DNA from: Caldifarciminota bacterium
GTDB taxonomy: Bacteria > Hydrothermota > Tepidihabitantia > SM23-42
NCBI GenBank assembly: GCA_014859085.1
Contig: JACUUY010000009.1
Coordinates: 1 to 40,889, forward strand
DNA length: 40,889 bases
Direction: 5' to 3'
Part shown: positions 9,298-40,149 of the stretch, one piece after another
Numbering within the stretch: the stretch's first letter is position 1
Layout of the letters: the number at the start of each line of letters is the position of its first letter
Notes under the pieces: generated by a model
The model's input: only the letters and a program-made list of their open reading frames with translations
What the model was told of the DNA's origin: nothing
Databases searched by the model: none
Position numbers and translations under genes: made by a program

Positions 9298-10416
9298 ATG
9301 AGCATCATAAGATTGAGCAACGAACAGAATCTGGTCAGAGGGGAGGTCAGGAAGTTCGTCACGGGTGAGCTCGAGCCGATCGCGGCCGATATCGAGAGAG
9401 ACCGTGCCGTGTCCGCACATATCCTTGAAGGGATCGCCCGGATGGGTTTGTTCGGGCTGATCGTGCCCGAACAATACGGCGGCGCCGGGCTCGATATCAC
9501 GAGTTTATGTGTTGCGCTTGAGGAACTCGCAAAGTCCTGTGCTTCGCTCGCGCTAATGGTTGCGGTCAACAATTGCCTTGTGGCGCAAGCCATCTTGAAG
9601 GGTGATCTGGATCTGGGCCAGGTACACCGGGAATATTTGAAACGGCTCGCGGGCGGCGCCGTATGCGGTTACGCACCATTCACCGATGTCGACACTGCCG
9701 TTCAATCATATGGGCTCGAGTCGGAGGGCGACCAGCATTATCTCACCGGCAAGTGCGACGTGGTGCTGGCCGGTATGCTGGCTGAACTGTTCGTCGTGCC
9801 GGTGAAGACCAGCGAGTCCATTGCGCTTCATCTGCTCGTCCGGGATGCGTCGGTAATGAATACCTATCCGGTACGAACGATGGGGATGCGTTCGGCCGGT
9901 ACCTGCGGCGTGGAACTCAAGCGCGCACCGCTCGCCGAGCAGAGCTGCCTTCTGTGCGGACATGACGGGCACGATGTCAGCCTGCCCTTGCACGGGACCG
10001 CTCGCATTGCATATTCGGCGATCGCGCTGGGCATTACCGAGGCCTCGCTCGATGCCGCGGCCAAATATTCTAAACAACGCAGGCAATTCGGGCGCGCGAT
10101 ATGCGAATTCCCAATGGTGCGGGAGATGCTTGCCGGGATCAAGACGTGCGTGGAGGAATCGAGGCTTCTCGTTTATGATGCAGCAAGCAGAGCAGATGCC
10201 GGCGAGGACCACGGCGCGGCTGCCCGCATCGCGTTTCTACGGAGTTGCGAGGGTGCCGTGTGCTCGGCGCTCAATGCAATACAGATCCATGGCGGTTACG
10301 GCTACACGCGCGACTATCCTGTGGAACGGCATTTCCGGGATGCGAAATCGCTCCAGCTGCTTGGTGAAGTGCCGGCCGACCTCAAGAACAAGATCGCGGA
10401 GGAGATCCTCACATGA
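9298..10416 (+). CDS. Acyl-CoA dehydrogenase-like subunit lacking the catalytic glutamate
   Basis: A 372-residue protein of the acyl-CoA dehydrogenase (ACAD) fold: helical N-domain, beta domain, then C-terminal helical domain. The C-domain keeps the FAD-contacting motifs RRQFG (261-265) and QIHGGYG (329-335). The part that normally carries the catalytic base reads LLGEVP (G356-E357) instead of YEGTSEIQ. The flavin/substrate motif FGLTEPxxGSD is replaced by CGYAPFTDVDT (123-133) and FITN is absent. It is therefore unlikely to be active alone. It overlaps the next ACAD gene by ATGA, which suggests coupled translation and a heteromeric complex. It is the first gene after the strong promoter. Confidence 0.8.
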   Translation: MSIIRLSNEQNLVRGEVRKFVTGELEPIAADIERDRAVSAHILEGIARMGLFGLIVPEQYGGAGLDITSLCVALEELAKSCASLALMVAVNNCLVAQAILKGDLDLGQVHREYLKRLAGGAVCGYAPFTDVDTAVQSYGLESEGDQHYLTGKCDVVLAGMLAELFVVPVKTSESIALHLLVRDASVMNTYPVRTMGMRSAGTCGVELKRAPLAEQSCLLCGHDGHDVSLPLHGTARIAYSAIALGITEASLDAAAKYSKQRRQFGRAICEFPMVREMLAGIKTCVEESRLLVYDAASRADAGEDHGAAARIAFLRSCEGAVCSALNAIQIHGGYGYTRDYPVERHFRDAKSLQLLGEVPADLKNKIAEEILT

Positions 10417-11549
10417 TACTTCAAAGCCAGCACAAGGAATTTCAGGCAAGGGTGAGGAGGTTTGCCGAGCAGGAAGTTGCGCCGCGCGCCCGGGAACTGG
10501 ACCGGACCGGCGAGTTCCCGCACGATCTGGTGAAACGCCTGGCCGAGCTGCAACTTACCGCCGTCTATGTCCCCAAGGAATACGGCGGTGCCGGACTCGA
10601 TACACTGCACTACGCGATAGCCGTCGAAGAGATCAGCCGGTCTTGCGGTTCAACCGGTATCTTCCTTGCCGCGCATTCTTCGCTTGGCGTCTTTCCGATC
10701 TTCTTTGCCGGGACTGAAGAGCAGAAAAGGAAATGGCTCATTCCTCTGGCCAGAGGTGAAAAGATAGGTGCATTCGGGCTCACCGAACCCGATGTCGGAT
10801 CTGATGCCGCGGCGACCAGGACCACGGCCAGGATCGAGTCAGACACGTATGTCATCAACGGCACAAAGCGGTTCATCACTTCGGGCAGCATTGCTGACGT
10901 TATTATTGTTACGGCCACCCAGGATCCATCAAAGGGTTATAAGGGGATATCGGCATTCGTGGTGGAAAAAGGGACGCCGGGGTTTTCCTACGGCAAAGAC
11001 GAAGAGAAGCTCGGCCTGCACGGTTCGATCACATCCGAACTGGTATTCGAGGATTGCGCCATCCCCCGGGATAACCTGCTCGGCAGCGAGGGCGACGGCT
11101 TCAGAATATTCATGGAGACGCTCGATGGCGGCCGGATCTCGATCGGTGCGCTCGCCCTGGGTATCGCCCAGGGTGCGCTCGATGCCGCGGTCAGCTTCAG
11201 CAAAGCGAGCAAGCGGTCGGGCAAGCCTTTGTATAAGATGCAGCCGGTGCAATCCATGATCGCCGAGATGGCCACCGAAATCGAGGCCGCGCGTCTGCTC
11301 ATTTACCATGCGGCCGCGTTGAAGGATTCCGGCCTGCCCTATATGAAGGAGGCGGCGATGGCAAAGTACTACGCTTCGACGATCGGGATGAAGGCGGCGA
11401 ACATGGCGGTCGATATCCATGGTCTGTGCGGCGTCACAGATGCTTATCCGGCTGAGCGTTTGATGCGTGACGAGAAGTTGATGGAGATCGGCGAGGGGAC
11501 GAGCGAGATACAGAAGATCGTCATCGCGCGGGAAGTACTGGGAAAATAA
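10413..11549 (+). CDS. Acyl-CoA dehydrogenase, catalytic subunit of a probable heteromer
   Basis: A 378-residue ACAD that oxidises an acyl-CoA to the 2-enoyl-CoA with FAD, passing electrons to ETF. It has FGLTEPDVGSD (121-131), KRFITSG (152-158) and the catalytic glutamate E361 in GEGTSEIQ. The two motifs by which an ACAD contacts the FAD of its partner subunit are degraded: the R-x-x-F-G site reads KRSGKPL (267-273) and the QxHGGxG site reads DIHGLCG (334-340). The upstream neighbour has exactly those motifs intact. The ATG overlaps the upstream stop by 4 bases. The substrate is unknown; butyryl-, isobutyryl- or branched acyl-CoA fit the neighbourhood. Confidence 0.85.
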   Translation: MILQSQHKEFQARVRRFAEQEVAPRARELDRTGEFPHDLVKRLAELQLTAVYVPKEYGGAGLDTLHYAIAVEEISRSCGSTGIFLAAHSSLGVFPIFFAGTEEQKRKWLIPLARGEKIGAFGLTEPDVGSDAAATRTTARIESDTYVINGTKRFITSGSIADVIIVTATQDPSKGYKGISAFVVEKGTPGFSYGKDEEKLGLHGSITSELVFEDCAIPRDNLLGSEGDGFRIFMETLDGGRISIGALALGIAQGALDAAVSFSKASKRSGKPLYKMQPVQSMIAEMATEIEAARLLIYHAAALKDSGLPYMKEAAMAKYYASTIGMKAANMAVDIHGLCGVTDAYPAERLMRDEKLMEIGEGTSEIQKIVIAREVLGK

Positions 11550-11822
11550 ACACCTAAACACCTAAAATCCTGAACGCCTAAAATGGGGAAATGCCTAAAT
11601 GCCTAAAGTCCTAAATGCCTAAATGGATTAATGGAGAAATGCCTAAATTCCTAAAATCCTAAATACCTAAATGGAAATAAGAAAATGGTCTCAGGTTTTT
11701 CAGACATTTTAGCTTGCGCAGGCGGGTTTAGGCATTTGTCTCACGAGGTTGTACGATTTAGGCGTTTAGGCATTTTGGTCCGCCGCAGGCGGGTTTAGGC
11801 ATTTGTATTTATAGGAGGAAAT
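11550..11822. repeat. Intergenic family-1 palindromic repeat, copy A
   Basis: The gap between two ACAD genes consists almost wholly of CCTAAATG-type units on the left and their complement ATTTAGGC units on the right, with GCAGGCGG-containing blocks between them. Positions 11619-11806 are repeated at 37611-37798 with three mismatches in 188 bases and no gap. The right end reads TTTAGGCATTT (11794-11804). The ribosome-binding site of the next gene (AGGAGG) follows immediately. The long inverted arms should form an extended hairpin in RNA. Confidence 0.85.
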
Positions 11823-12965
11823 ATGAATTTTGATCTGACGAGCGACCAGAAAATGTTACAGGACCAAGTGCGTAAGTTTGCCCAGACCGAATTGGCGCCG
11901 CTTGCGCCTGAAATCGACAAGTCCGGTGAATTTCCATGGCCGAGCCTCAAGAAGATGGCCAAGCTCGGTCTGCTCGGCGTGATCGTGCCCGAGAAATACG
12001 GTGGATCTGGTTTCGATTTCGTTTCGCTGGCAATCGCCATCGAGGAGATCTCCCGGGCGTGTGCCTCGACCGGAGTCATCGTGGCGGTGAACAACTCGTT
12101 GACGACATATCCGATCCTGGAATTCAGCAGCGAGGAGCTGAAGAAGAAGTATCTGCCGCAACTGTGCAGCGGTGAAAAGATCGGCGCTTTTGGTCTGACT
12201 GAGCCGAACGCCGGCTCAGATGTCGCGGCAATGGAGTCAACCGCACGCCTGGAGGGCGATCATTACATTGTCAACGGCACCAAACGTTTCATCACCAACG
12301 GCGGCGAGGCGGGCATTTATGTTGTCTTTGCCTACACGAACCGGGACCTGAAGCACAAAGGGATCAGCGCATTCGTGGTCGAACGCGACACGCCGGGTTT
12401 CAGCGTGGGCAAGCACGAGGACCTCATGGGCATCCGCGCAACTGCGAACTGCGAGTTGATGTTCGAGGACGTGAAGGTCCCTAAGGAGAACCTGCTGGGC
12501 AAGGAGGGCGACGGGTTCAAGATCTGCATGAACACACTCGATGTCTCGCGCATCGATATTGGTGCGCAGGCGGTTGGCATTGCCCAGGCTGCGCTCGATG
12601 AAGCGGTCAGGTATTCGAAGGAGCGCAAGGCATTTGGCCAGCCCATCTGCAACTTCGAAATGATCGAAGCATTGATCGCCGAGATGGCGACTGAGATACA
12701 GGCGGCCCGCCTGCTCGTGCATTATGCGGGTTTTTGCAAGGATAAGGGAATGCAGAAATTCTCCAAGGAAGCAGCGATGTCCAAGTACTACGCGTCGGAC
12801 ATCGCGGTGGACGTGACGAGGAAAGCGGTGCAGATTCACGGCGGGTACGGCTACTCCAAAGAATATGCGGTGGAACGACTGTACCGTGATGCCAAGATCC
12901 TGGAACTGTATGAGGGCACGTCTGAGATCCAGAAGATAGTCATCGCGAGAGAACTCACCAGATAA
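11823..12965 (+). CDS. Acyl-CoA dehydrogenase (complete, short-chain/butyryl-CoA type)
   Basis: A 380-residue ACAD with every standard motif: FGLTEPNAGSD (123-133), KRFITNGG (154-161), RKAFGQP (268-274), QIHGGYGY (337-344) and catalytic E364 in LYEGTSEIQ. It should form an ordinary homotetramer with one FAD per subunit and deliver electrons to EtfAB, which is encoded just downstream. It resembles bacterial butyryl-CoA dehydrogenases in length and motif spelling, but acyl-chain specificity is not proven. An AGGAGG ribosome-binding site precedes the ATG. The TAA stop overlaps the start of repeat copy B. Confidence 0.92.
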   Translation: MNFDLTSDQKMLQDQVRKFAQTELAPLAPEIDKSGEFPWPSLKKMAKLGLLGVIVPEKYGGSGFDFVSLAIAIEEISRACASTGVIVAVNNSLTTYPILEFSSEELKKKYLPQLCSGEKIGAFGLTEPNAGSDVAAMESTARLEGDHYIVNGTKRFITNGGEAGIYVVFAYTNRDLKHKGISAFVVERDTPGFSVGKHEDLMGIRATANCELMFEDVKVPKENLLGKEGDGFKICMNTLDVSRIDIGAQAVGIAQAALDEAVRYSKERKAFGQPICNFEMIEALIAEMATEIQAARLLVHYAGFCKDKGMQKFSKEAAMSKYYASDIAVDVTRKAVQIHGGYGYSKEYAVERLYRDAKILELYEGTSEIQKIVIARELTR

Positions 12966-13081
12966 ATGCCTAAAATGCGTAAATGCCTAAACACCAAAAA
13001 TCCTAAATACCTAAATGGAAAAGAGAGAAAGGCGTTAGGCATTTAGGCATTTTGGTCCTGCGCAGGCGGGTTTAGGCATTT
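12964..13081. repeat. Intergenic family-1 palindromic repeat, copy B (118 bp)
   Basis: A compact element bounded by the perfect 11-bp inverted repeat AAATGCCTAAA (12964-12974) / TTTAGGCATTT (13071-13081). The interior carries further CCTAAAT and ATTTAGGC units and the short GC-rich block CTGCGCAGGCGGG. The left end overlaps the TAA stop of the ACAD gene (12963-12965). No gene fits inside. Confidence 0.85.
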
Positions 13082-13102: not shown

Positions 13103-13873
13103 TTGGACCTGATCGTCTGTTTGAAAAGGGTGCCGCAGACGGCTGAAGCCGAAGTGCAGATAGGACCATCGGGCAAGGAGATCGTGCGTGACCGGCTCAC
13201 TTTCGACATGAACGAAGCCGATTCATACGCCCTTGAGGAAGCGATCCTGCTCAAAGAAAAATTCGGCGGAACGATAACGGTCATATCACTGGGTTTGCCC
13301 GATGCCGAGGATACCCTGCGTATTGCGCTGGCAAAGGGCGCGGACCATGCGATCCGCATCAAGGCCGAGGATTTTGGCGAACTCGACGGGTTCAAGACCG
13401 CGTCCTTGCTCAAAGATGCGCTCGTCAATGTGAAATTCGACGTACTGCTTACGGGATGCGTGGCGACCGACGACAGTCTCTACCAGGTTGGGCCAGTGCT
13501 CGCTGAACTGCTCGGTGCGCCCCACGCCACGCTGGTGGGTAAGATCGAGATCGCCGGTGAAAAGGCGCATGTCAACCGCGAACTTGAGGGTGGTCTGATC
13601 GAACACCTCGAGATGTCGCTGCCCGCGGTGTTCGCGGTGCAGACCGGCATCAACGAACCGCGCTACGCATCGCTCATCGCAATAAGGAGAGCGGCTGGCA
13701 AGGAGATCAAGCTACTGGGCAAAGATGATATCCCGTCTGAGCACAGGGTCAACAGCACACTCGAGAAATTGTTCGTGCCGCCGGCCGGCAAGCGGGCGGA
13801 GATAATGACCGGCACGGCGGACGAGGTATCCGCAAGGACTGCATCACTGATCAAAGAAAAGGGTTTAATCTAA
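13103..13873 (+). CDS. etfB: Electron transfer flavoprotein beta subunit
   Basis: A 256-residue EtfB, half of the heterodimer that takes electrons from acyl-CoA dehydrogenases. It begins DLIVCLKRVPQT and has the typical MNEADSYALEEAI segment (36-48), the nucleotide-binding ATDDSLYQVGP loop near 120-130 and the conserved LPAVFAVQTGINEPRYASL segment near 175-193. The start is TTG, chosen because AGGGAGG lies 5 bases upstream. The loop after strand 5 is close to, but not the same as, the GDTAQVGP pattern of NAD-binding bifurcating ETFs, so bifurcation cannot be decided by eye. etfA follows after 9 bases. Confidence 0.92.
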   Translation: MDLIVCLKRVPQTAEAEVQIGPSGKEIVRDRLTFDMNEADSYALEEAILLKEKFGGTITVISLGLPDAEDTLRIALAKGADHAIRIKAEDFGELDGFKTASLLKDALVNVKFDVLLTGCVATDDSLYQVGPVLAELLGAPHATLVGKIEIAGEKAHVNRELEGGLIEHLEMSLPAVFAVQTGINEPRYASLIAIRRAAGKEIKLLGKDDIPSEHRVNSTLEKLFVPPAGKRAEIMTGTADEVSARTASLIKEKGLI

Positions 13874-13882
13874 GGGGGAGCA

Positions 13883-14857
13883 ATGGCAGATATTCTGGCG
13901 CTGGTTGAACATCGGCAGGGCGCGGTCCGGGACGTTACCTTCGAATTGCTGACCTGCGGCCGGAAAATGGCCGGGACCTTGAACGCGAAGTTGACGGGCG
14001 TGGTCCTCGGTCACAAGACCGACGATCTTGTGGCGCGCGTCAGAAATCACGCGCACCGTCTCATTGTCATGGATAGTGAAGTATTCGAGAATTTCAATGC
14101 GGAGACATACCAGCATGCTCTCGTCAAGATCATCGAAAGGGAGCATCCGTATCTGTCACTCTTTGCCAACACAGCGTTCGGGATCGATCTGTGTCCGGCG
14201 CTTGCCACGCAAATGGGTTACCCGTTCACAACCGACTGCATCGGTGTCGAGATCGTCGACGGGCAGGTCAGAGCGACGCGGCAACTGTACGATGGCAAAC
14301 TCGATGCGCAGGTGCGCCTGACCGCGGCCGATTCTTACATGCTCACCATGCGCAGCGGAGCCTGCCCGGCCGAGGGGTCGGATCTCACGGCCGAGGTCGA
14401 AAGAATAGAGACGCTGGTTGCCAGCCAGCCTGAATACAGGAAGTTCATTGAATACATCGAGGCGGCGGTCGGCGACGTCGATATAACAAAGGCCGACGTT
14501 ATTGTCGGCGTGGGCCGGGGCATCAAGGAACAGGCGAACATGCCGATGATCGAGGAACTGGCAAAGGCCCTGGGTGGTGTGGTTGCCTGCTCGCGGCCGG
14601 TCGTCGACGCGAACTGGCTGACCAAGGACCGGCAAGTCGGCTCGTCGGGCAAGACGGTCAAGCCCAAACTCTACATTGCGATCGGGATCTCCGGCGCGTT
14701 CCAGCATATCGCGGGCATGAAGAGCTCGGACACGATAATCGCGATCAACAAGGATCCGAATGCGCCGATCTTTAATGAAGCCGATTACGGGATCGTCGAT
14801 GATCTCTTCAAGGTCGTGCCGGTGCTCAAGAACAAGATCCTGGAGCTGAAGAAATAG
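13883..14857 (+). CDS. etfA: Electron transfer flavoprotein alpha subunit
   Basis: A 324-residue EtfA, the FAD-carrying partner of EtfB. The N-terminal half is the variable nucleotide-fold domain. The C-terminal FAD domain has the hallmark [40 protein letters not shown] and [14 protein letters not shown] segments. GGGGGAG precedes its ATG. It lies between three ACADs and two Hdr-type proteins, suggesting electron flow from acyl-CoA to FAD and then to Fe-S/FAD of HdrA and the Hdr Fe-S protein. HdrA starts 4 bases after its stop. Confidence 0.94.
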
Positions 14858-14861
14858 ATCG

Positions 14862-16820
14862 ATGAAAAGGATCGGTGTTTTCGTCTGCCACTGCGGCCGG
14901 AATATAAGCGGCACGGTCGATGTTGAAGAGGTTGTGCGGCAGATCAGAGGGTATCCGGGTGTAGTGTTCTGCGAGGACAACAAGTACATGTGCTCGGACC
15001 CCGGTCAGAAATTGATCAAGGATATGATAACCGAACAGAAGCTGGAAGGGGTGGTCATTGCCGCGTGCAGTCCCTTGCTCCATGAGGTCACTTTCCGCAG
15101 GGCAGCGGCCGAGGTCGAACTGAACCCGTACTTGCTGGAGATGGCGAATATCCGCGAGCAGTGCAGCTGGATACATGCTGACCAGAGCCAGGCGACGGAG
15201 AAAGCGGTCAGGATCATCAATGCGGCGATCGAGAAAGCGGAGCACGACGAGGCGCTCGTACCGTCCAGGATACCGGTGAAAACGCGCGCCCTGGTCATTG
15301 GCGGCGGGATCGCCGGGATCCAGGCAGCCCTCGACATTGCCAATGCCGGCCATGAAGTCGTGCTCGTCGAGAAGAACCCCTCGATCGGCGGCCGCATGGC
15401 GCAGTTATCCGAAACCTTTCCGACCCTCGACTGTTCGCTGTGTATTCTGACCCCCGGGATGGTCGAGGTTGGACAGCACCCGCGCATAAAACTTATGGCC
15501 TATTCAGAAGTCGAGGAGGTGTCAGGGTATGTCGGTAATTTCAAGGTCAAGGTCCGCCAGAAGAGTTCGTGCGTGGACCGCAGCAAATGCACCGGCTGCG
15601 GTCTGTGTTATGAGAAGTGTCCGGTTACCGCACCATCTGAATTCGATGAAGGAATGGGCAAGCGCAAGGCGATCTATGTGCCGTTCCCCCAGGCCGTGCC
15701 GAACCGGCCGGTCATCGACCGGGACCACTGCACTTATTTCCTTAAGCCGGGCAAGTGCCGCGTTTGCCAGATCGTCTGTCCGGCTCAGGCCGTCGACTTC
15801 CAGCAGACGGACAGCGTCGTCGAGGAGGAGGTCGGAGCGATCATCATTGCCACCGGTTACACGCTCTACCCGGCTGAGAAAATGCCCGAGTACGGCGCCG
15901 GTAAATATCAGGACGTGGTGAATGGTCTCCAATTTGAACGGCTGTTATCGGCTTCCGGGCCAACCCGCGGCAAGATCAGGCGGCCGTCTGACGGCAAGGT
16001 GCCCAAGAGGATCGCCTTTGTCTGCTGTGCCGGATCGCGCGATCCTGAACACCACCTTGCATACTGCTCGAAGATCTGTTGCATGTATAATGCCAAGCAT
16101 GCGCTGCTCTATAGGGAACGGGTGCCGGATGGCGAAGCTATTGTGTTCTCGATCGACGTGAGAACCGCGGGCAAGGGTTATGAAGAATTCATGATGAGAA
16201 CGAGGGAAGAGGAAAATGTAATGTACCTGAGAGGCAAGCCTTCGCGCATAATCAAGGAGGGCGACCAGCTCAGCGTCTGGACGGTCGATACGCTGACCGG
16301 CCACCTGCTCAAGGTGAAGTGCGACATGGTCGTATTGTCGCTGGCCGTTGTGCCGCCGATCGGCGTGGCCGATCTGGCCAAGAAACTGAGGGTTCAGACG
16401 AACCTGGACGGCTTTTTCAGCGAGGCCCACCCGAAACTGCGTCCCGTCGAGTCGCTGGTGCCGGGATTCTTCCTGGCCGGTTGTGCCCAGTCACCCAGGG
16501 ACATCGCCGAGTCCGTTGCGCAGGCCTCGGCCGCGGCCTCCAAGGTGCTGGAGATGTTCTCGAAGAAGGAACTTGCGTCTGAACCAATGGTCGTCACGAT
16601 CGATGAGGAGAGGTGTAGCGGCTGCAAGGTGTGCGTGGTCACTTGTCCCTACGGTGCCCGGGAGTTCGATGAAGCGAAGAACATCGTTAAAATAAACGAA
16701 GCACTATGCCTGGGCTGCGGTTGCTGTGTTGCCGCGTGCCCGAGCGGTGCTTCCGAGCAGAAGAATCTGGTCGAAAAACAGATCTCCAGAATGGTGGAGG
16801 TAATGCTTGGCGAAAAATAA
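14862..16820 (+). CDS. hdrA: HdrA-like FAD/iron-sulfur oxidoreductase
   Basis: A 652-residue protein with full HdrA architecture. The N-terminus begins RIGVFVCHCGRN. A conserved Cys region is followed by the FAD Rossmann motif GGGIAG (147-152) and VEKNPSIGGRMAQL. A first 4Fe-4S motif is CTGCGLCYEKCP (243-254), with further cysteines near 290-310. Two ferredoxin-type clusters at the C-terminus read CSGCKVCVVTCP and CLGCGCCVAACP. HdrA of methanogens is the bifurcating FAD subunit of heterodisulfide reductase. In bacteria HdrA-type proteins serve several electron-transfer complexes. Its position after etfBA and before an HdrC/HdrB protein suggests a soluble complex oxidising EtfAB or reducing ferredoxin/NAD. 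No flavin-mobility or hydrogenase subunit is present. Confidence 0.9.
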   Translation: MKRIGVFVCHCGRNISGTVDVEEVVRQIRGYPGVVFCEDNKYMCSDPGQKLIKDMITEQKLEGVVIAACSPLLHEVTFRRAAAEVELNPYLLEMANIREQCSWIHADQSQATEKAVRIINAAIEKAEHDEALVPSRIPVKTRALVIGGGIAGIQAALDIANAGHEVVLVEKNPSIGGRMAQLSETFPTLDCSLCILTPGMVEVGQHPRIKLMAYSEVEEVSGYVGNFKVKVRQKSSCVDRSKCTGCGLCYEKCPVTAPSEFDEGMGKRKAIYVPFPQAVPNRPVIDRDHCTYFLKPGKCRVCQIVCPAQAVDFQQTDSVVEEEVGAIIIATGYTLYPAEKMPEYGAGKYQDVVNGLQFERLLSASGPTRGKIRRPSDGKVPKRIAFVCCAGSRDPEHHLAYCSKICCMYNAKHALLYRERVPDGEAIVFSIDVRTAGKGYEEFMMRTREEENVMYLRGKPSRIIKEGDQLSVWTVDTLTGHLLKVKCDMVVLSLAVVPPIGVADLAKKLRVQTNLDGFFSEAHPKLRPVESLVPGFFLAGCAQSPRDIAESVAQASAAASKVLEMFSKKELASEPMVVTIDEERCSGCKVCVVTCPYGAREFDEAKNIVKINEALCLGCGCCVAACPSGASEQKNLVEKQISRMVEVMLGEK

Positions 16821-18015
16821 GAAGATCGTTGTCGATATCAACCCCGAGATCCGGGATGTCCTGGTGGAGATGGGCGCGGTCGATATATACAAGTGTTACC
16901 AGTGCGGCAAGTGCGCGAGTGCGTGTCCGTGGTTTCAGGTGGGGACCTACGATTTCCCGGTCTTCCGGTATCCGCTGGAGACCGCGCTCGGCCTGGTCGC
17001 AAGCAGCGAGGAAAAAGAAGATCTGGCAAAAGAGGTCGATAAGCTGTACCGTTGCGTCGGCTGCGAGGCGTGTGTTGACCAGTGTCCGCTGGGCGTGGAC
17101 ATACCCGATATCCTGAGGGCGGCAAGAAGGATCCTGCTCGATTTCGGATGCTATCCCGAGCCGCTCAAGTCCGTGGTGCAGAAGATCAGGAATGTGGGAA
17201 ATCCGCTCGGCGAGCCGCGCGAGAAGCGCGCTGATTGGGCCGGCGATTTGGATATCAGCGCGTTTCAAACGCATATGGAGATCCTCTATTTCCCGTGCTG
17301 TATCCCGTCGTACGATGCGCGGATCCAGAATGTGGCAAGGTCGACTGCGCGCGTGCTCAAGAAGGGCGGCGTGCCGTTCGGCATCCTGGGCGCAAAGGAA
17401 CAGTGCTGCGGTGAGGCGATACGCCGGGTCGGCGCGGAAAGCGTCTATCAGGAAGCGGCCAAGGCGAATATCCGCAGCTTCGAGGCGGCCGGGGTGAGGC
17501 GGGTCCTGGTCAGCTCGCCCCATTGTCTGGTCACGTTCAAGAACGAGTATCCTGAACTGGGGAGCAGTGTTGAGGCCATCCATGCTACGGAATATCTGTG
17601 GCCGCTGATCGAACAGGGCCGGCTCAAACCCGCGAAGAGCGTCAATAAGAAAGTAGTGTACCATGATCCATGCACGCTGGGGCGTCAGTGCGGGATCTAC
17701 GACGCGCCGAGAAAGATCCTGCGGAGCATCCCCGGTCTGGCATTGCTGGAGGTCGAAGATTTCGCACGCGAGTTCAGCTTATGCTGCGGCGCGGGCAGTG
17801 GCGCGCTCTGGCTCGATTGGCCCAAGGGCGAGCGGATCGCCGACGTCCGGATCAAACAGCTGGTCGATACCGGCGCTGAGGTGATCGCGGTCGCCTGTCC
17901 GTATTGTCTGCAGATGTTTGAAGAGACCGTGAAGGCAATGAACCTGAACATTCCGGTCATGGACGTGACGGAAATATTGTATGAAGCATTGAACGAAAAG
18001 GGATCAGCGGAGTAG
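16807..18015 (+). CDS. HdrC/HdrB-type (HdrD-like) iron-sulfur protein with two CCG domains
   Basis: A 402-residue soluble protein joining an HdrC-like ferredoxin part with an HdrB-like part. It has two 4Fe-4S motifs, C30-C33-C36-C40 and C83-C86-C89-C93. These are followed by two CCG domains: CCIPSYD...QCCGE and, later, HDPCTLGRQ...CCGAGSG...ACPYCLQM. CCG domains carry the non-cubane clusters that reduce disulfides or accept electrons in HdrB, GlpC and LutA families. The TTG start lies inside hdrA (14-base overlap), with GGAGGT five bases upstream, so translation is coupled. The natural substrate is unknown; a role as the electron acceptor side of HdrA is inferred. Confidence 0.88.
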   Translation: MAKNKKIVVDINPEIRDVLVEMGAVDIYKCYQCGKCASACPWFQVGTYDFPVFRYPLETALGLVASSEEKEDLAKEVDKLYRCVGCEACVDQCPLGVDIPDILRAARRILLDFGCYPEPLKSVVQKIRNVGNPLGEPREKRADWAGDLDISAFQTHMEILYFPCCIPSYDARIQNVARSTARVLKKGGVPFGILGAKEQCCGEAIRRVGAESVYQEAAKANIRSFEAAGVRRVLVSSPHCLVTFKNEYPELGSSVEAIHATEYLWPLIEQGRLKPAKSVNKKVVYHDPCTLGRQCGIYDAPRKILRSIPGLALLEVEDFAREFSLCCGAGSGALWLDWPKGERIADVRIKQLVDTGAEVIAVACPYCLQMFEETVKAMNLNIPVMDVTEILYEALNEKGSAE

Positions 18016-23726: not shown

Positions 23727-25358
23727 GTGAAAAGAGCAAAGTGGGATGCAAAATTCAAGGCGTGCCGAGAAAGGGATATTGATTTCAGTACTGTCTCGGG
23801 CCTGCCGGTCAGGCCGCTGTACACGCCGGCCGACATCGCCGGTTTTGAGCATGACCGCGACCTCGGTTATCCGGGCGAGTTTCCCTACGTGCGCGGCGTG
23901 CAAACCAGCATGTACCGCGGCCGTCTGTGGACCATGCGGCAATTCTCCGGCTTCGGCACGGCCGGGGACACGAACCGGCGTTACAAGTACCTGTTGAAAC
24001 ACGGGCAGACCGGGCTCTCGGTGGCTTTTGATTTTCCCACGCTCTACGGCCGGGATTCTGATGATCCCTTTGCCCGGGGCGAAGTCGGCAAGTGCGGCGT
24101 CGCCATCGACAGCCTGCAGGACATGGAGACACTGTTCAGCAGTATCCCGCTCGACAAGATCTCGACTTCGATGACGATCAACCCGCCGGCCGCCATGCTC
24201 CTTGCGATGTATATCGCGGTCGGTGAGAAGCAGAAATTGCCGGCACACATCCTTACCGGTACGATACAGAATGATATGCTCAAGGAATATCAGGCACAGA
24301 AGACCTGGATCTATCCGCCCGAACCCTCCCTCAAGATCATCGCGGACATTCTCGAATACTGCGCGGAGCGCGTTCCGCGCTGGAACACGATCTCGATATC
24401 CGGCTACCACATAAGGGAAGCCGGTTCCACGGCCGTGCAAGAGCTCGCGTTCACGCTCAAGAATGGATTCACGTACGTTGAGCGCGGCATCAGCGCAGGC
24501 CTGCCCGTTGACAAATTCGCGCCGCGCCTGTCTTTTTTCTTCAACGCGCATCTGGATTTTTTCGAGGAGATTGCAAAATACCGCGCCGCGCGCCGGATAT
24601 GGGCGCACACCATGCGCGATAAATACGGGGCCCAGGATCCCCGTTCCTACCTCATGCGCTTTCACACACAGACCGCGGGATGCACCCTGACCGCGCAGCA
24701 GCCCGAGAACAACATCGTGCGCACTGCCTATCAAGCACTCTCGGCCGTCCTCGGCGGCACCCAGTCTCTGCATACCAATTCCATGGATGAGAGCTATGCA
24801 CTGCCCACGGAGAAAGCCGTCAAGATCGCGCTCCGCACGCAGCAGTTGCTGGCTTACGAGACGGGCGTGCCGAATACCATCGACCCGATGGCTGGTTCGT
24901 ACTATGTCGAAGCATTGACCAACGAACTCGAACGGGAAGCGTACAAGTATTTTGAGAAGATCGACAAAATGGGCGGTGTTATTCCGGCCATCGAAAAGGG
25001 ATACTTCCAGAAAGAGATATCGCGCAGCGCCTATTCCTATCAGGTGGCCCTGGAGCGGCAGAGGAAGCACCATGTCGGGGTCAATATCTTCACCGAAGAC
25101 GAAAAGCCCGCCATCGAGACCTTGAAGATCCCGCCCGCGGTCGAGAAGGTTCAGATAGCAAAACTGAGACGGCTGAGAAGGGAGCGGAATAACCAAAGGG
25201 TCAAGGAGAAACTGCGCTTATTACGCAAGGCGGCAAAGGATGGAGAGAACCTGATGCCCAGGATTCTTGATTGCGTCAGGGCGTACGCGACGTTGGGCGA
25301 AATGTGCAGCACGTTGAAGGAAGAATACGGGGTGTACCGCGAGCCGATCATCTTTTAG
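23727..25358 (+). CDS. icmA: Isobutyryl-CoA mutase-like large subunit
   Basis: A 543-residue B12-dependent acyl-CoA mutase TIM-barrel subunit without its own B12 domain. In methylmalonyl-CoA mutase, Tyr89 and Arg207 (Propionibacterium numbering) bind the substrate carboxylate. Here those positions are Phe73 (RQFSGF) and Gln191 ([10 protein letters not shown]). The catalytic His is kept (Y227-H228 in [10 protein letters not shown]). Phe plus Gln is the known signature of isobutyryl-CoA mutase, which interconverts isobutyryl-CoA and butyryl-CoA. That makes a methylmalonyl-CoA substrate unlikely. GTG start with TAGGAGG upstream. MeaB precedes it and the B12 subunit follows. The residue assignment is by eye and should be confirmed in an alignment. 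Confidence 0.82.
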
Positions 25359-25400
25359 AAATTTCGCATTTCGCATTTCGAATTTCGAAATTGTTGTTGG
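25359..25400. repeat. Short TTTCG-type intergenic repeat
   Basis: Between the mutase and the B12-subunit gene, positions about 25363-25392 consist of repeated TTTCGCA/TTTCGAA units that end in the self-complementary AATTTCGAAATT. It is small and AT-rich, unlike the flanking genes, and resembles the other intergenic repeats of this window in style but not in sequence. Confidence 0.6.
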
Positions 25401-25408
25401 GAGGTTCT

Positions 25409-25906
25409 ATGGAACGAAAAATTCGTGTCTTAGTCGGTAAGCCCGGTCTGGATGGACATGACCGCGGCGCGAAGGTCGTTGCCGCCGCACTGCGTGATGC
25501 CGGCATGGAGGTCATATACACCGGACTGCACCAGACATGTGAGAGCATCGTCGATGCGGCGATTCAGGAAGATGTACAGGTTGTCGGCCTATCGATCCTG
25601 TCCGGCGCCCACATGACGATACTGCCCAGAATACTGAAACTGCTGAAGACCAGGAAGGCCGGCGACATGATTGTGATCGGCGGCGGTATTATTCCGGCCG
25701 ATGACGCGAAGAAACTCGAGAAAATGGGCGTGCGGCGGCTATTCGGCCCAGGTACGCCGACCGTTGAGATCGTCGATTGGATAAGAGCCAATGCCGGCAA
25801 GGTCGGCAAGTCCGGCAAGGTCGGCAAGTCCGGCAAGGTTCCACGGCATCAGACCGTAAAGAAAAAGAAGGCGACCGCAGTTGCCAGGTGGCGGAAGAAG
25901 AAATGA
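25409..25906 (+). CDS. B12-binding small subunit of acyl-CoA mutase
   Basis: A 165-residue cobalamin-binding Rossmann protein. It has the DxHxxG motif (D15, H17, G20 in GLDGHDRG), SILSGAHMT (62-70) and the GGGIIP loop (91-96), all typical of the C-terminal B12 domain of mutases. His17 would replace dimethylbenzimidazole as the lower cobalt ligand. The family normally ends near VDWIRAN; here about 37 extra residues follow, made of alternating GKV/GKS units and a Lys-rich tail ([15 protein letters not shown]). It is the only B12 subunit in the window for two large subunits. ATG 25409 has GGGAGG four bases upstream; a longer frame overlaps the mutase gene. Confidence 0.92.
25796..25840 (+). repeat. 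In-gene 18-bp tandem repeat encoding Gly-Lys tail
   Basis: Five consecutive 9-base units alternate GGCAAGGTC and GGCAAGTCC, an 18-bp period repeated about 2.5 times, inside the end of the B12-subunit gene. They encode [15 protein letters not shown]. Such near-perfect repeats can change in copy number by slippage, in steps of three residues. Confidence 0.85.
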
Positions 25907-30016: not shown

Positions 30017-30508
30017 TTGGCATACCTCGTCAGGACCGATGGCCGGGAGTTCAAGGTCGATATTAGAAATGCGGAAGAAGGGCTTGTCACATCCGTGAAC
30101 GGCGAAAGGATCGACGTGGCGATAATCCATGCCGCAGGTAACCGGTTGATGCTCATTGTGAACAACGAGCCGTTTTCCATCATTCTTGAATCGGACAGGC
30201 GGATCATCGTGAACGCCGAGACCTATGATGTGGACCTCATCGATGAGCGGATCCCGCGGTTAATGAGCGCAGGGACTGGTGCCGTTCAGAAAAGGGAAGT
30301 GGCGCTCAAAGCCGTCATGCCCGGGCTGGTCGTCGAGGTCAATGTCAAACCGGGCGATACGGTCAGAGCCGGCGCGGGCCTGCTCGTTGTCGAAGCGATG
30401 AAGATGCAGAACGAGTTGAAGTCGAGTCGTGACGGATGTGTGAAAATTATCCATGTGCAGCCGGGCCAGACCGTGAACACGGGCGACACGCTCATAACGA
30501 TTGAATGA
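30017..30508 (+). CDS. Biotin carboxyl carrier protein
   Basis: A 163-residue protein whose C-terminal 75 residues are a biotinyl domain. The biotin attachment site is EAMKM with K129. A flexible linker precedes it, and the N-terminal part (about 1-85) resembles the BT/propionyl-CoA carboxylase carrier region. It completes a three-gene carboxylase with the biotin carboxylase and carboxyltransferase. Start TTG 30017 is one base after the previous stop, with GAGGGG upstream. The end overlaps a possible TTG of the next gene, but that gene more likely starts at ATG 30537. Confidence 0.9.
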
Positions 30509-30536
30509 GATCTCCCGCACAGGAATTGACCGGATC

Positions 30537-32090
30537 ATGATGTTTTCTCCTGAAGATCTAAAGGACTTCGAATACAAACGTGATCTGGGTGAGCCCGGCA
30601 AGTACCCGTTCACGCGGGGGGCCTATCCCAGCATGTATACGGGCCGGCTCTGGACGATGCGCCAGTACGCTGGCTACGGCACGGCCGAAGAGTCGAACCG
30701 GCGGTACAAATACCTGCTCGCGCACGGCCAGACCGGTCTTTCGGTGGCCTTCGATCTGCCCACGCAGATGGGTTATGATTCCGATCATCCGTTTGCCGAG
30801 GGTGAGGTCGGCAAGACCGGGGTCGCGATCGACACCCTGGCCGACATGGAGATCCTGTTCAAAGACATCCCCCTGGACCGGGTCAGCACTTCCATGACGA
30901 TCAATGCCACGGCCGCGATACTCCTGGCGATGTATATTGCCCTGGCCGAAAAGCAGGGCGTGGCGCTGGCAGTTCTTGAGGGCACGGTGCAGAACGATCC
31001 GCTGAAGGAATACATCGCACGCGGCGCCTACATCTACCCCCCGGCCGCGTCGATGAAAATAACGGTCGACATAATAGCCTATTGCAGCAAGAACCTGCCC
31101 CGGTGGAACACGATCTCGGTTTCCGGTTATCATATCAGGGAAGCCGGTGCCACCGCGGTTCAGGAAGTCGCATTCACGCTGGCAAACGGCATTGAGTACG
31201 TGCGCGCCGTCATCGAGCGCGGCGGTTTGCCGGTCGACGACTTCGCGCCTCGCCTATCGTTTTTCTTCAACGCGCACAGTAATTTCTTTGAGGAGATCGC
31301 CAAGTTTCGCGCGGCCCGGAGGATCTGGGCAAAGATCATGCGCAAGCGGTTCAAGGCACAGGACGCCCGGTCCTGGGTGCTCAGGTTCCATACGCAGACC
31401 GCGGGGTCAACGCTGACCGCGCAGGAACCGCAGAACAATACGGTCCGCGTGGCGTTACAGGCGCTGGCGGCCGTTCTGGGCGGCACGCAGAGCCTGCATA
31501 CGAATTCGTTCGATGAAGCCCTGTCGCTGCCGGCCGAGGACGCGGTGCGCCTGGCGCTGCGCACGCAACAGATCATGGCGTACGAGACACAGGTGAGCGA
31601 GGTCATTGATCCGCTGGGCGGTTCATACTACCTTGAGCGGCTTACGCACGACCTGGAAGCCGGGGTGAACAGGTGTCTGGCCGAGGTCGACGGGATGGGC
31701 GGTTCGGTCAATGCAATTGCCAAAGGGTACTTCCAGAAAGAGATACATAACAGCGCATACGAATATCAGAAAGCCCTCGAGAGCGGCACAAGGAAGGTGA
31801 TCGGCGTCAACAAATTCGGTGAAGAGGCGGCGGTGCTCGCCGGTTACACCCCGGTAAAGATCGCACCGCGACTACTTGAAAAGCAGGCGGCGAGGACCGC
31901 GGCCGTGAAGCGAAAGAGGGACCGCCGGCTGGTTGAGCAGTCTCTCGCCCGTCTCAGGGAATCAGCGATCTCAGGCTGGAATCTGATGGTACCGGTCCTC
32001 GATTGTGTCCGTGCGTATGCCACCGTGGGTGAAATATCGGATATCTTGAGAGATGTATACGGAATTTACCGGGAGAGATCATTTCTGTGA
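30537..32090 (+). CDS. mcmA1: Methylmalonyl-CoA mutase large subunit
   Basis: About 517 residues, a mutase catalytic subunit without B12 domain. The carboxylate-binding residues of true methylmalonyl-CoA mutase are kept: Tyr44 (RQYAGY, equivalent to Tyr89) and Arg162 ([10 protein letters not shown], equivalent to Arg207), plus catalytic Y198-H199 ([10 protein letters not shown]). It should interconvert methylmalonyl-CoA and succinyl-CoA, completing the propionyl-CoA route with the carboxylase upstream and the epimerase downstream. No B12-binding gene is adjacent, so it must use the subunit at 25409-25906 or one elsewhere. A TTG 36 bases earlier is a possible start but has no ribosome-binding site. 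Confidence 0.9.
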
Positions 32091-34559: not shown

Positions 34560-36140
34560 ATGAACTTGAACCATATCGGCATTGCCGTACGGAGCATCGA
34601 AGAGCAGCTGCGGCTCTGGCATGGTGTGCTTGGTCTGCGCATCAGGAGTGTTGAGGATCTTGCTGAGCAGAAGGTGCGTCTTGCAATGCTCGAGGCGGGC
34701 GCGGTCACGATCGAACTGCTCGAACCCCTTACCGCTGACAGCCCGATCGCGAAGTTCATCGCGAAGCGCGGCGAAGGCCTGCACCACCTGAGCTTCGAAG
34801 TCCCGGATATTAACCAAACGATAAGGGCGCTGAAGAACAGGGGTTTGCAGATGATCGATGATGTTCCGAGGAAGGGGGCACATGGTTCGAGCATTGCGTT
34901 CGTTCATCCATCATCAACCGGCGGAGTATTGATCGAACTGTGCCAGGAAGCCGGAATAACCCGAGGAGGAACGATGCATATTGAGACCGATGTTGTGCAC
35001 GGTGGGCAACATCCAGACAAGTGGACCGGAGCGCTGGCTCCGCCGATCTACCAGACGTCAACTTTTGCCTTCCGCGATGCCGACCACGGTGCGCGGTTGT
35101 TCAAGGGAGAAGAAGCAGGACATATCTACACGCGCATCAGCAACCCGACGATCGAGCTTCTTGCCGCGAAGATCGCTCTTCTGGAGTCGGCTGAAGCGGG
35201 TTTGATCTTCGCCTCTGGACTTGCGTCGATATTCAATGTGGTTGTGGCTACTGTGAGGGCGGGCGAAAACGTGGTCTCGGATGATACGATATACGGAGGT
35301 ACGTACACGCTCTTCAGGAACGTATTACCACGGCTCGGCATCGAAGTGATATTTGTCGATGCGACCGATCCGGAGCGGTTCGCCGGTGCAATCAACGAGC
35401 GCACGAAACTTGCTTTCATTGAGACCCCGGCCAACCCGACACTGAAGATCATCGATATTGCCGCGCGCGCGGAGCAAACGCGGAGTAGGGGTGTACCGCT
35501 GTGCGTTGATAACACGTTTGCCACGCCGTGCCTGCAGCGGCCGATCGAGCACGGCGCCGATATCGTCGTTCATTCAGCCACAAAATACTTCGGCGGCCAT
35601 GGAGACATTATTGGGGGTGTTGCCGTGGGCCGGAAGGATTTCATCCAGGGATTATGGAAATACGCCAAGGATGTCGGTGCTTCGATCTCGCCATTCAATG
35701 CCTGGCTTATTTTGAGAGGACTGAAGACGCTGGCCGTGCGCATGGAAAGGCATTGCGCGAATGCCCGGAAGATAGCGGACTATCTTGACCGTCACGAAAA
35801 AGTCGAAAAGGTCTATTATCCTGGATTGGAGTCGCATCCCGGACATGACATTGCGTGCCACCAGATGCGCGACTTCGGCGGGATGATCGGATTCGATGTG
35901 AAGGGCGGCAAGGAGGCAGGTAAACTAATGATGAATTCAGTCAAGTTATGCACGCTGGCGGTGAGCCTGGGCGACGTCGATACGCTCATCGAACACCCTG
36001 GTTCCATGACGCATTCCGGATACAGCGAGAAAGAGCTGCTCGAATGCGGCATCAAACCGGGGTTCGTTCGTCTATCAGCCGGCCTCGAGCACGTTGATGA
36101 TATCATTGCGGATCTAAACCAAGCGCTGGACAGAATATAA
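34560..36140 (+). CDS. Methylmalonyl-CoA epimerase fused to a Cys/Met-metabolism PLP lyase
   Basis: A 526-residue in-frame fusion. Residues 1-130 are a VOC-fold methylmalonyl-CoA epimerase with metal ligands H5 (NHIGIAV), E52 (TIELLEP), H76 (LHHLSFEV) and E126 (LIELC). Residues 139-526 are a complete gamma-lyase/gamma-synthase-family PLP enzyme: YTRISNP (190-196), ASGLASI, and PLP lysine K342 in HSATKYFGGHGD. The typical methionine gamma-lyase cysteine (the GCT of LYGCT) is glycine here (IYGGT), so cystathionine gamma-lyase or another role is equally possible. The PLP part has its own GAGGAGGA ribosome-binding site and ATG at 34974, so it may also be made separately. The joint is just eight residues, unlike a designed linker. 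Confidence 0.85.
   Translation: MNLNHIGIAVRSIEEQLRLWHGVLGLRIRSVEDLAEQKVRLAMLEAGAVTIELLEPLTADSPIAKFIAKRGEGLHHLSFEVPDINQTIRALKNRGLQMIDDVPRKGAHGSSIAFVHPSSTGGVLIELCQEAGITRGGTMHIETDVVHGGQHPDKWTGALAPPIYQTSTFAFRDADHGARLFKGEEAGHIYTRISNPTIELLAAKIALLESAEAGLIFASGLASIFNVVVATVRAGENVVSDDTIYGGTYTLFRNVLPRLGIEVIFVDATDPERFAGAINERTKLAFIETPANPTLKIIDIAARAEQTRSRGVPLCVDNTFATPCLQRPIEHGADIVVHSATKYFGGHGDIIGGVAVGRKDFIQGLWKYAKDVGASISPFNAWLILRGLKTLAVRMERHCANARKIADYLDRHEKVEKVYYPGLESHPGHDIACHQMRDFGGMIGFDVKGGKEAGKLMMNSVKLCTLAVSLGDVDTLIEHPGSMTHSGYSEKELLECGIKPGFVRLSAGLEHVDDIIADLNQALDRI
34963..34976 (+). promoter_or_regulatory. Internal ribosome-binding site and start of the PLP-lyase part
   Basis: GAGGAGGA (34963-34970) precedes ATG 34974 by three to seven bases depending on which repeat of GAGG is counted. 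This ATG begins exactly where normal members of the PLP family begin (MHIETDVVHGGQ). It strongly suggests that the second domain is, or recently was, a separate gene. Confidence 0.7.
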
Positions 36141-36187: not shown

Positions 36188-37582
36188 ATGAATAATGGCG
36201 TCCAGAAGTATGTGGACGAGGCACGCAAGCATCTCGCCGAGCGCAGTCGGTACATCAAGAACGAGGTCAGGAAATGGAAATTCGATACGATCGCGGTGCA
36301 CGGCGCGTATTCGGTAAAGGAGGCGATCGAAAACAACCAGGGCTCGATCATCGAACCGATATATATGAGTTCATCGCAGGCGTTTCGCGACAGCGATGAA
36401 ATGGAAGCGGCGCTGGCTTACCTGATACCGTCCTGGACCTACAGCCGGATACACAATCCGTCGATCGGCTATCTTGAAGATACGCTGGCCCTGCTCGAGG
36501 GCTATGGTTTCGATGGCGAGACCGGGTGCTGTGCTACTTCATCGGGCATGGCGGCGATCGCCAGTGCCACCGATCCCTTTCTGGTGAAGAGAGGCACAAG
36601 GTCGGACGAGAAGATCAATTTTGTTTCGAACGCCCAGATCTACGGCGGGACATTCCAGCAGTTCAGCATCCGTAAGATGCAAGAACGCGGCATTGAGTGC
36701 CGCTGGGTGGTGGAACCAGACAACATAGATGAGTGGGCTTCAAGGATCGACGGCGACACTCGTTTTCTGTTCGGTGAATTACCCTCGAACCCCGGCCTGA
36801 TGTTTTTCGATCTCAAGAAGGTGATCGACCTGGCGCACGAGAACGGAATTCCGGCGATCTTCGATGCAACGATCGCGACGCCGGCACTGCTTCGTCCGAT
36901 CCAACTCGGCGCGGACATCGTTATCCACTCGGTGACGAAAACATTGACCGCAAGCGGATTCGGCATGGCCGGAGCGGTGATAGCGCGCCGGAATATCGTA
37001 TCGAATATCGATAGCGAGCCAATGAAGGAAGACTTCGCGGCCTACATAAAACTCCTGCCCAACCGGGATATAGGGTGGTGTCTTTCTCCATTCCAGGCCA
37101 TTCTCACCCTGAACGACATACGAACCCTGCGTTCCAAGGTTGATGTTCTGAGTCAGAATGCCATGAAAGTCGCCCGGTTCCTCAATGGGCACGCCAAGAT
37201 CTCACAGGTGAATTACCTCGGTCTTGAGAATCATCCCCTGTATGAGGTGGCGAGCAAGTACCTGTGGCTGGTCGATGCCGAGCATGACGAGCATTACCGA
37301 AAAGCCGTTAACCGGTACGGCCATCTTATGTCGTTTCAGTTCAAGGGTGGAGTCACTGCCGCGCGGAAATTCTTCGACAACCTCAAACGCATCTGGCGGG
37401 CGACTGATCTGGGGCGCATCAAATCGGTTGCGACGATACCGGCAATATCCACCCACCAGCAGATGGGCGAGGACCTGCGCGACATGGCGAACATCCCCGC
37501 GGACCTGGTGCGTTTGTGCATCGGAGCCGAACACCCGGATGACATGATCGCGGATCTGGAACAAGCACTTGACAAAGCATAA
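36188..37582 (+). CDS. Second Cys/Met-metabolism PLP enzyme (divergent)
   Basis: A 464-residue relative of the PLP lyases above, with a longer N-terminus (about 30 charged residues before KWKFDTIAVHGAYS). It has YSRIHNPS (85-92), CATSSGMAAIASATDPF, AQIYGGT (149-155) and PLP lysine K251 in HSVTKTLTASG. The sequence differs clearly from the first lyase, for example with a lysine-containing TKTLTASGFGMAG turn. An O-acetylhomoserine sulfhydrylase- or cystathionine-type activity is possible; methionine breakdown is also plausible. GCGGAGGA precedes the ATG, and it starts 47 bases after the fusion gene. Its TAA stop overlaps repeat copy C. Confidence 0.8.
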   Translation: MNNGVQKYVDEARKHLAERSRYIKNEVRKWKFDTIAVHGAYSVKEAIENNQGSIIEPIYMSSSQAFRDSDEMEAALAYLIPSWTYSRIHNPSIGYLEDTLALLEGYGFDGETGCCATSSGMAAIASATDPFLVKRGTRSDEKINFVSNAQIYGGTFQQFSIRKMQERGIECRWVVEPDNIDEWASRIDGDTRFLFGELPSNPGLMFFDLKKVIDLAHENGIPAIFDATIATPALLRPIQLGADIVIHSVTKTLTASGFGMAGAVIARRNIVSNIDSEPMKEDFAAYIKLLPNRDIGWCLSPFQAILTLNDIRTLRSKVDVLSQNAMKVARFLNGHAKISQVNYLGLENHPLYEVASKYLWLVDAEHDEHYRKAVNRYGHLMSFQFKGGVTAARKFFDNLKRIWRATDLGRIKSVATIPAISTHQQMGEDLRDMANIPADLVRLCIGAEHPDDMIADLEQALDKA

Positions 37583-37798
37583 ATGCCTAAAATCCAAAAT
37601 TCCTAAATACCTAAATGGATTAATGGAGAAATGCCTAAATTCCTAAAATCCTAAATACCTAAATGGAAATAAGAAAATGGTCTCAGGTTTTTCAGACATT
37701 TTAGCTTGCGCAGGCGGGTTTAGGCATTTGTCTCACGAGGTTGTACGATTTAGGCATTTAGGCATTTTGGTCCGCCGTAGGCGGGTTTGGGCATTTGT
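37581..37798. repeat. Intergenic family-1 palindromic repeat, copy C
   Basis: Bounded by AAATGCCTAAA (37581-37591) and TTTGGGCATTT (37786-37796, one mismatch to TTTAGGCATTT). Positions 37611-37798 repeat 11619-11806 of copy A with three differences in 188 bases, 26 kb away. It begins over the stop codon of the PLP gene and ends just before the AGGAAGGAGG ribosome-binding site of the HMG-CoA synthase gene. Confidence 0.88.
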
Positions 37799-39000: not shown

Positions 39001-40149
39001 ATGCGTGACGTTGCCGTAATCGGTTGCGGTATGACTAAGTTCGGCGAGTTGTGGGAAAAATCTTTGAGGGACATTTTTGTTGAAGCGGCGGTCAAGGCGA
39101 TCGACGACGCGAAGGTGGATCGCGTCGCATCCATGTATGTCGGTTCCATGACGCCCGGGCTCTTCGTCGGGCAGGAACACGTCGGCGCGCTCATGGCCGA
39201 CTATCTCGGCATACCGCATATCCCGGCGGTGAGGGTCGAGTCGGCCTGCTGTTCGGGCGGCATGGCGCTGCGTCTCGGGTTCTTCGAGGTTGCCTCCGGA
39301 TACAGCGATATCGTCCTCGTCGGCGGCGTCGAAAAGATGACCGACGGAGCAGACGTAACATACGCGCTGGCCACGGCCTCGGATCAGGAGTATGAAGTGT
39401 ACCATGGCGTGACGTTCCCCGGGTTGTACGCGATGATCGCTCGGGCGCACATGCACAAGTACGGGACGACGAGGGAGCAGCTCGCCATGGTGGCGGTCAA
39501 GAATCACCGCAACGGCGCGCTCAATCCCAACGCGCAATTCCCGGGCCAGGTCACGGTCGAACAGGTCATCAACGCGACGATGGTCGCCGATCCCCTGACC
39601 GTTCTCGACAGCTCGCCGGTCTCGGACGGCGCGGCCTGCGTGATACTGGCATCCATGGATCTCGCGCGGAATTCAGATAGACCGGCGATCCGGGTGATCG
39701 GCACAGGCGCGGCAACCGACACGCTTGCGCTGCACGCGCGCGCGGATGTCACGCGGCTCGAAGCGGTCAACCGGTCGGCCGAAGCGGCGTATAAGATGGC
39801 CGGTGTCAAGCCCGCCGACATTAATTTCGCCGAGGTGCACGACTGTTTCTCGATTGCCGAGATCTGTATCATCGAGGAACTGGGCTTCGCTGAGAGGGGC
39901 AAGGGCGGGCCGTTCACCGAACAGGGGCACACCGCCCTGGCCGGGAAGATACCCGTGAACACATCGGGTGGCCTCAAGTCGAAGGGACACCCGGTCGGCG
40001 CAACCGGTATCGCCCAGGTCGTCGAGGTCGTCGAGCAATTGCGCGGCACGGCCGGCAAGAGACAGGTGAAGAACGCCCGCATCGGATTGACGCAGAACAT
40101 GGGCGGGTCTGGAGCATCATCCGTCGTGCATATATTTACAAATGCCTAA
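39001..40149 (+). CDS. Thiolase (acetyl-CoA acetyltransferase, archaeal/SCP2 type)
   Basis: About 382 residues. Active-site cysteine in [32 protein letters not shown], and the catalytic histidine in [14 protein letters not shown]. The C-terminal motif reads [10 protein letters not shown] instead of the CxG of classical thiolases, as in archaeal and SCP2-type enzymes. It probably makes acetoacetyl-CoA for the neighbouring HMG-CoA synthase, with which archaeal relatives form a complex bridged by a DUF35 protein. No DUF35 gene is seen before the window ends. ATG 39001 has GAAGGGGG upstream. The last two codons and TAA (AAT GCC TAA) lie within the inverted repeat of the next element. Confidence 0.88.

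Follow-up and report, generated by a model that had tools for sequence, protein, structure and literature searches.

In ordinary acyl-CoA dehydrogenases (ACADs) the FAD lies between two subunits. This point, on which the initial annotation of the present locus was built, is confirmed by human IVD, in which T200 on one side and Q323 from the neighbouring subunit hold the FAD, with R312 and G384 likewise at the subunit border (PMC12369846). In the M. tuberculosis cholesterol ACADs ChsE1-ChsE2 and ChsE4-ChsE5, which are alpha2beta2 enzymes, the two subunits are encoded by adjoining genes, as are those of IpdE1-IpdE2 and Scd1AB. The alpha subunit carries the catalytic Glu and holds both the substrate and the isoalloxazine ring, the ADP-ribose moiety of FAD is contacted by the beta subunit (PMC11153573, PMC8399759), and each heterodimer has one FAD and one Glu (PMC8399759). 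CasC of R. jostii is a fused double ACAD: the Glu is in one domain, and FAD binding needs the other (PMC8399759). The initial annotation compared the pair described below with mycobacterial ChsE1-ChsE2. The likeness of the split held, but the kind is not confined to mycobacteria: heteromeric ACADs are known or proposed far more widely, including Proteobacterial steroid ACADs, the fused CasC and PimCD-like dicarboxylate enzymes (PMC8399759, PMC12543098), the heterotetramer of PimC and PimD, the large and small subunits of pimeloyl-CoA dehydrogenase, having only been suggested (PMC12543098). A literature search retrieved no paper on a heteromeric ACAD of the present lineage.

The window analysed here, a stretch of 40,889 nucleotides from a Caldifarciminota bacterium, contains two ACAD-like genes on the + strand: A1 (9298..10416, 372 aa) and B1 (10413..11549, 378 aa). 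The A1 stop and the B1 start overlap in the tetranucleotide ATGA (10413..10416, +), and both ORFs were found as initially reported. Both proteins belong to the ACAD superfamily. Pfam matches above cut-off were obtained for all three ACAD domains of B1 and for the N- and C-terminal domains of A1, the middle domain of A1 being without a match. Both were predicted by AlphaFold as full ACAD folds (pLDDT 89.5 for A1 and 95.3 for B1) and aligned with solved ACADs at TM 0.9-0.98. The closest solved structures to both models were ordinary short-chain ACADs, those nearest to B1 being the butyryl-CoA dehydrogenases of A. fermentans (4l1f) and C. difficile (5ol2), with 50-53% identity and TM 0.97-0.98.

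A1 retains two partner-side FAD contacts, R-R-Q-F-G (residues 261-265; 10078..10092, +) and Q-I-H-G-G-Y-G (residues 329-335; 10282..10302, +), of which R261, F264, Q329 and GGYG are invariant in 22 loci. It has no catalytic Glu: the Glu column is occupied by Gly, a non-conserved Glu following one residue later, and FGLTEP and FITN are replaced by GYAPFTDVD and VVLAG. B1 retains the own-side flavin contacts of FGLTEPDVGSD (residues 121-131; 10773..10805, +), with own-site columns invariant in 23 loci, together with FITSG (residues 154-158) and the catalytic Glu361 (11493..11495, +). The latter lies within GEGTSEIQ, with Gly instead of the usual Tyr before the Glu. On the partner side of B1, RxxFG has become SKRSG and QxHGGxG has become DIHGLCG. 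The sets of kept and lost motifs read earlier from the letters alone were reproduced in the ORFs and in the alignment. The possibility that the motifs are intact elsewhere in A1 or B1 was ruled out by an alignment of 114 sequences from five ACAD groups, in which the loss could be followed column by column. Butyryl-CoA dehydrogenases, like other ordinary homotetrameric ACADs, have both residue sets in one chain, whereas A1 and B1 have one set each; as adjacent genes with complementary loss of FAD and catalytic residues, they have the make-up of a heteromeric ACAD. The third gene of the trio, C (11823..12965, +), encodes a canonical ACAD with both sets, an ordinary enzyme of the butyryl-CoA dehydrogenase type.

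Analysis of the genome (2.57 Mb, 97% complete) showed five PF00441 matches only: A1, B1, C and two adjoining genes on another contig (C216:1331-3684; locus L006 of genome G000). These last two form an unlinked second pair, B2 followed by A2, with the same complementary split. B2 (404 aa) has FGLTEAQAGSD, FISSG and YEGTN, lacks RxxFG and reads LMGPH in place of HGGxG; A2 (365 aa) has RVQFE and QVYGGYGY and lacks the catalytic motifs. The intact B2-A2 pair occurs in about 21 genomes of the order, with a gene order opposite to that of A1-B1. Where the surroundings of B2-A2 were sampled in relatives, the neighbours were MutL, an M42 peptidase and DUF6754, with no catabolic operon. Neither A1 nor A2 has an active site, and neither should be annotated as an acyl-CoA dehydrogenase.

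Conservation was assessed with 22-23 sequences for each of the groups A1, B1, A2, B2 and C, taken from genomes of the same order. The six partner-side columns of A1 were invariant in 22/22 sequences, and none of 20,000 random column sets was equally conserved; its own-site columns were conserved below random (P 0.003). A2 showed the same pattern against random columns (P 0.0075). In the column alignment both A proteins have lost the own side and kept the partner side entirely. In B1 all ten own-site columns were invariant (23/23), and the partner-side columns held canonical residues in 33% of cells. The own side kept by B1 and B2 comprises the Thr and Glu of FGLTEP, Gly-Ser, the catalytic Glu, Gly and Thr; the partner-side Arg, Phe, Gln and second Gly are gone, except for Arg in two B2 rows. 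C keeps both residue sets in 23/23 sequences.

A1 and B1 are present in 25 of the 27 genomes of the order, some truncated at contig ends, usually in the order A1-B1-C, and they are neighbours in essentially all assembled loci. The 4-base ATGA overlap was found in all loci of the same family with both genes whole; in a sister family (f2) A1 and B1 are separated by 32-582 nt instead. The A1/B1 split is conserved and is no local accident. In close pairs, dN/dS was 0.11-0.19 for A1 and 0.02-0.10 for B1, and within-family identity was 40-58% for A1 versus 71-81% for B1. A1 is under purifying selection, looser than that on B1, and its dN/dS, fold and conservation rule out a pseudogene. One A1 that appeared to be split into halves 540 kb apart (L072 and L073 of genome G007) proved to be a scaffolding artefact, the halves ending in N runs and overlapping in sequence.

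The Gly ahead of the catalytic Glu of B1 occurs in 23/23 sequences of the order and also in the class-level and Zixibacteria B1 proteins, Tyr being present in B2 and C. It may provide a wider pocket. The same Gly is found in some canonical ACADs (L171, L188) and is thus no hallmark of heteromers.

In other families of the class no A was found. There a B1-like protein, with GEGT, the own side intact and the partner side gone, is encoded directly before canonical C, an arrangement seen in 16/16 class-level loci with both genes. A search of genome contigs with an A1 profile gave mostly canonical ACADs and no close A1 relatives among the matches listed; among these matches were two Zixibacteria contigs (L088, L134) on which a B1-like protein has a partner that is nearly canonical, a similar intermediate state. 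In these two loci and in a Bacillota locus (L103), the ACAD genes adjoin and the partner side is gone in one member only; the Bacillota pair adjoins MeaB and an acyl-CoA mutase. In one genome of family f3 (G027) an A-like gene adjoins B1, and the B2 partner side is gone.

An A1-A1 or a B1-B1 contact would contain no complete site and an A1-B1 contact exactly one, which argues for a heteromer. We estimate at roughly 80% the probability that A1 and B1 form an obligately heteromeric ACAD, most likely alpha2beta2, each heterodimer housing one of its two FAD sites. The alpha-type subunit, B1, would bind both substrate and flavin ring and use Glu361 as base; A1, the beta-type subunit, would have no working site of its own and would use its Arg, Phe, Gln and Gly residues to grip the ADP portion of the FAD seated in B1. 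The initial annotation had put forward a composite site in each heterodimer, and this remains the best-fitting reading of the sequences, given the order-wide complementarity, the ATGA overlap, the selection on catalytically dead A1 and the same division of labour in ChsE. Complex formation, stoichiometry and FAD count we infer from sequence. A looser role of A1 as a scaffold is conceivable because of its fast evolution, and the class-wide occurrence of B1 without A1 indicates that A1 is not strictly needed for a B1 to exist. The same class-level loci, 16 in number, in which a B1 lacking the partner side stands directly 5' of canonical C, are what would be expected if B1 worked with the adjacent C, which retains every partner-side residue, and A1 were an accessory or regulatory ACAD-like protein outside the FAD site. 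We consider this unlikely: translational coupling links A1 to B1 within the order, exactly the six partner-side columns of A1 are invariant after its own site has gone, which an accessory role would not need, and A2/B2 show the identical split with no adjacent C gene. It is barely credible that A1 and A2 are functionless, decaying duplicates and that B1 acts alone with weakened FAD binding. All catalytic motifs of A1 are gone and it evolves faster than B1, but its dN/dS of 0.11-0.19, the open frame in 22 loci, the intact fold, the invariant partner side and the order-wide retention speak for a function, and of the roughly 100 canonical ACAD ORFs inspected, almost every one has the residues that B1 lacks.

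The obligate heteromer so proposed for A1 and B1 could also be a distant member of the PimCD/IpdE/ChsE family acquired by transfer, with no independent origin. In favour of this, PimD- and IpdE2-like matches from Actinobacteria and Proteobacteria, aligned with their adjoining partners, are split as A1/B1 are. In a joint tree, 16 partner subunits of the known types formed one clade (support 99) and 15 catalytic subunits of the known types another (100); both clades fell outside the short-chain ACADs, and A, B1, B2 and C all fell inside, so that neither A nor B grouped with its known counterpart. Constraining B1 with the known catalytic subunits was rejected (p-AU 0.0175), whereas constraining A1/A2 with the known partner subunits was borderline (p-AU 0.070 and 0.049), the rejection of a joint partner clade being thus only marginal. 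Quite apart from the trees, the catalytic Glu occupies the LCAD/IVD helix position in 15/15 known catalytic subunits, with Gly or Ala at the MCAD position, in line with the ChsE description (PMC11153573); in B1 and B2 the reverse was found, with the Glu at the MCAD position. B2, moreover, is nested among stand-alone canonical enzymes. The best profile matches of the pair were acryloyl-CoA reductase and short-chain ACADs rather than PimC/D, whose profiles scored weakly (A1 against TIGR03203, 41 bits; B1 against TIGR03204, 85 bits). ChsE differs further in its steroid substrates and steroid-degrading hosts, and CasC in being a single polypeptide with a bile-acid substrate. We therefore regard membership by transfer as quite improbable. 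The architecture is common to both, but common descent of the window pairs with ChsE/IpdE/PimCD-type ACADs is not supported; the separate tree placement and the MCAD-position Glu indicate an independent origin, and the window pairs are probably convergent rather than homologous members of the known heteromeric class. For A alone, given the borderline joint-clade tests, convergence depends mainly on its grouping with C (98), and the long A branches may mislead the trees.

The trees placed A1 and A2 in one clade (100) with C as nearest relative (A and C together, 96 and 98), and B1 in a separate clade. B2 nested within stand-alone enzymes of the class that have an intact partner side (100) and read RVQFG or RRQFG; an apparent loss of F-G in these enzymes was ruled out as an artefact of rows added at fixed alignment length. 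The class-level occurrence of B1 beside C without A1 suggests that C can act as a partner for B1, or did so in the past. In the simplest order of events suggested by the extant states, B1 would have lost its partner side while the adjacent canonical C complemented it; a duplicate of C would then have decayed into a dedicated, catalytically dead partner A; and after duplication of A, A2 would have come to serve the unrelated B2, whose own partner side would have been lost thereafter. The long branches of A call for caution here as well. On balance we think it reasonably probable that the system originated separately within the class by such a ratchet, from a canonical pair through a B1 needing a bifunctional C to a dead A, with the A1/A2 lineage taken up by two unrelated catalytic subunits.

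Downstream from C, on the + strand, are EtfB (13103..13873) and EtfA (13883..14857), the beta and alpha subunits of an electron-transfer flavoprotein (ETF) identified by NCBIfam, an HdrA-like iron-sulfur flavoprotein (14862..16820; NCBIfam HdrA2, 810 bits) and an HdrBC/GlpC/TfrB-like protein with CCG domains (16807..18015; Pfam CCG, NCBIfam TfrB). The order A1-B1-C-EtfB-EtfA, with EtfBA directly 3' of C, and HdrBC are kept across the order of bacteria, and HdrA too in the genus. The A. fermentans and C. difficile butyryl-CoA dehydrogenases are likewise ETF-linked. This gene context suggests that electrons would probably pass from A1B1 to the adjacent EtfBA and on to the HdrA/HdrBC-like proteins.

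The wider window encodes a tryptophanase-family lyase, parts of propionyl-CoA carboxylase, MeaB, two acyl-CoA mutases, alanine dehydrogenase, a CoA-transferase and methionine-lyase-like proteins, a gene set typical of amino-acid fermentation. One mutase large subunit (23727..25358, +; Pfam MM_CoA_mutase) has the residues RQFSG and KEYQAQ, which we take to be of the isobutyryl-CoA mutase type; the second (30501-32090) has RQYAG and KEYIAR, presumably of the methylmalonyl-CoA mutase type. A literature check of this residue rule turned up nothing. One separate B12-binding subunit (25271-25906) is present in the mutase cluster. With this gene set and the mutase residues, A1B1 probably acts on an acyl-CoA of amino-acid fermentation that is short or branched, for example one linked to the isobutyryl/butyryl-CoA mutase of the cluster.

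If so, split-site ACADs, known from bacteria that degrade steroids and dicarboxylates, would also include a short-chain, ETF-linked enzyme of a probably anaerobic, amino-acid-fermenting lineage, which suggests that repeated evolution of the architecture is possible. The split architecture itself was already known; what is apparently new is a heteromeric ACAD of independent origin with surviving intermediates. The surviving states, namely B1 beside either canonical C or dead A1, and the stand-alone ancestors of B2, offer a testable case of the passage from homomer to obligate heteromer.

Elsewhere in the window, a methylmalonyl-CoA epimerase-like domain is fused to a Cys/Met PLP lyase (34560-36140). 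Most relatives encode these parts separately, in adjoining genes, which points to a recent fusion, a lost stop codon or an assembly error. Short tandem arrays of an octamer resembling CCTAAATG were seen between genes of the cluster (11553-11675, 12963-13017, 37580-37665 and 40140-40175), and a 96-bp tandem array closes the contig (40560-40889).
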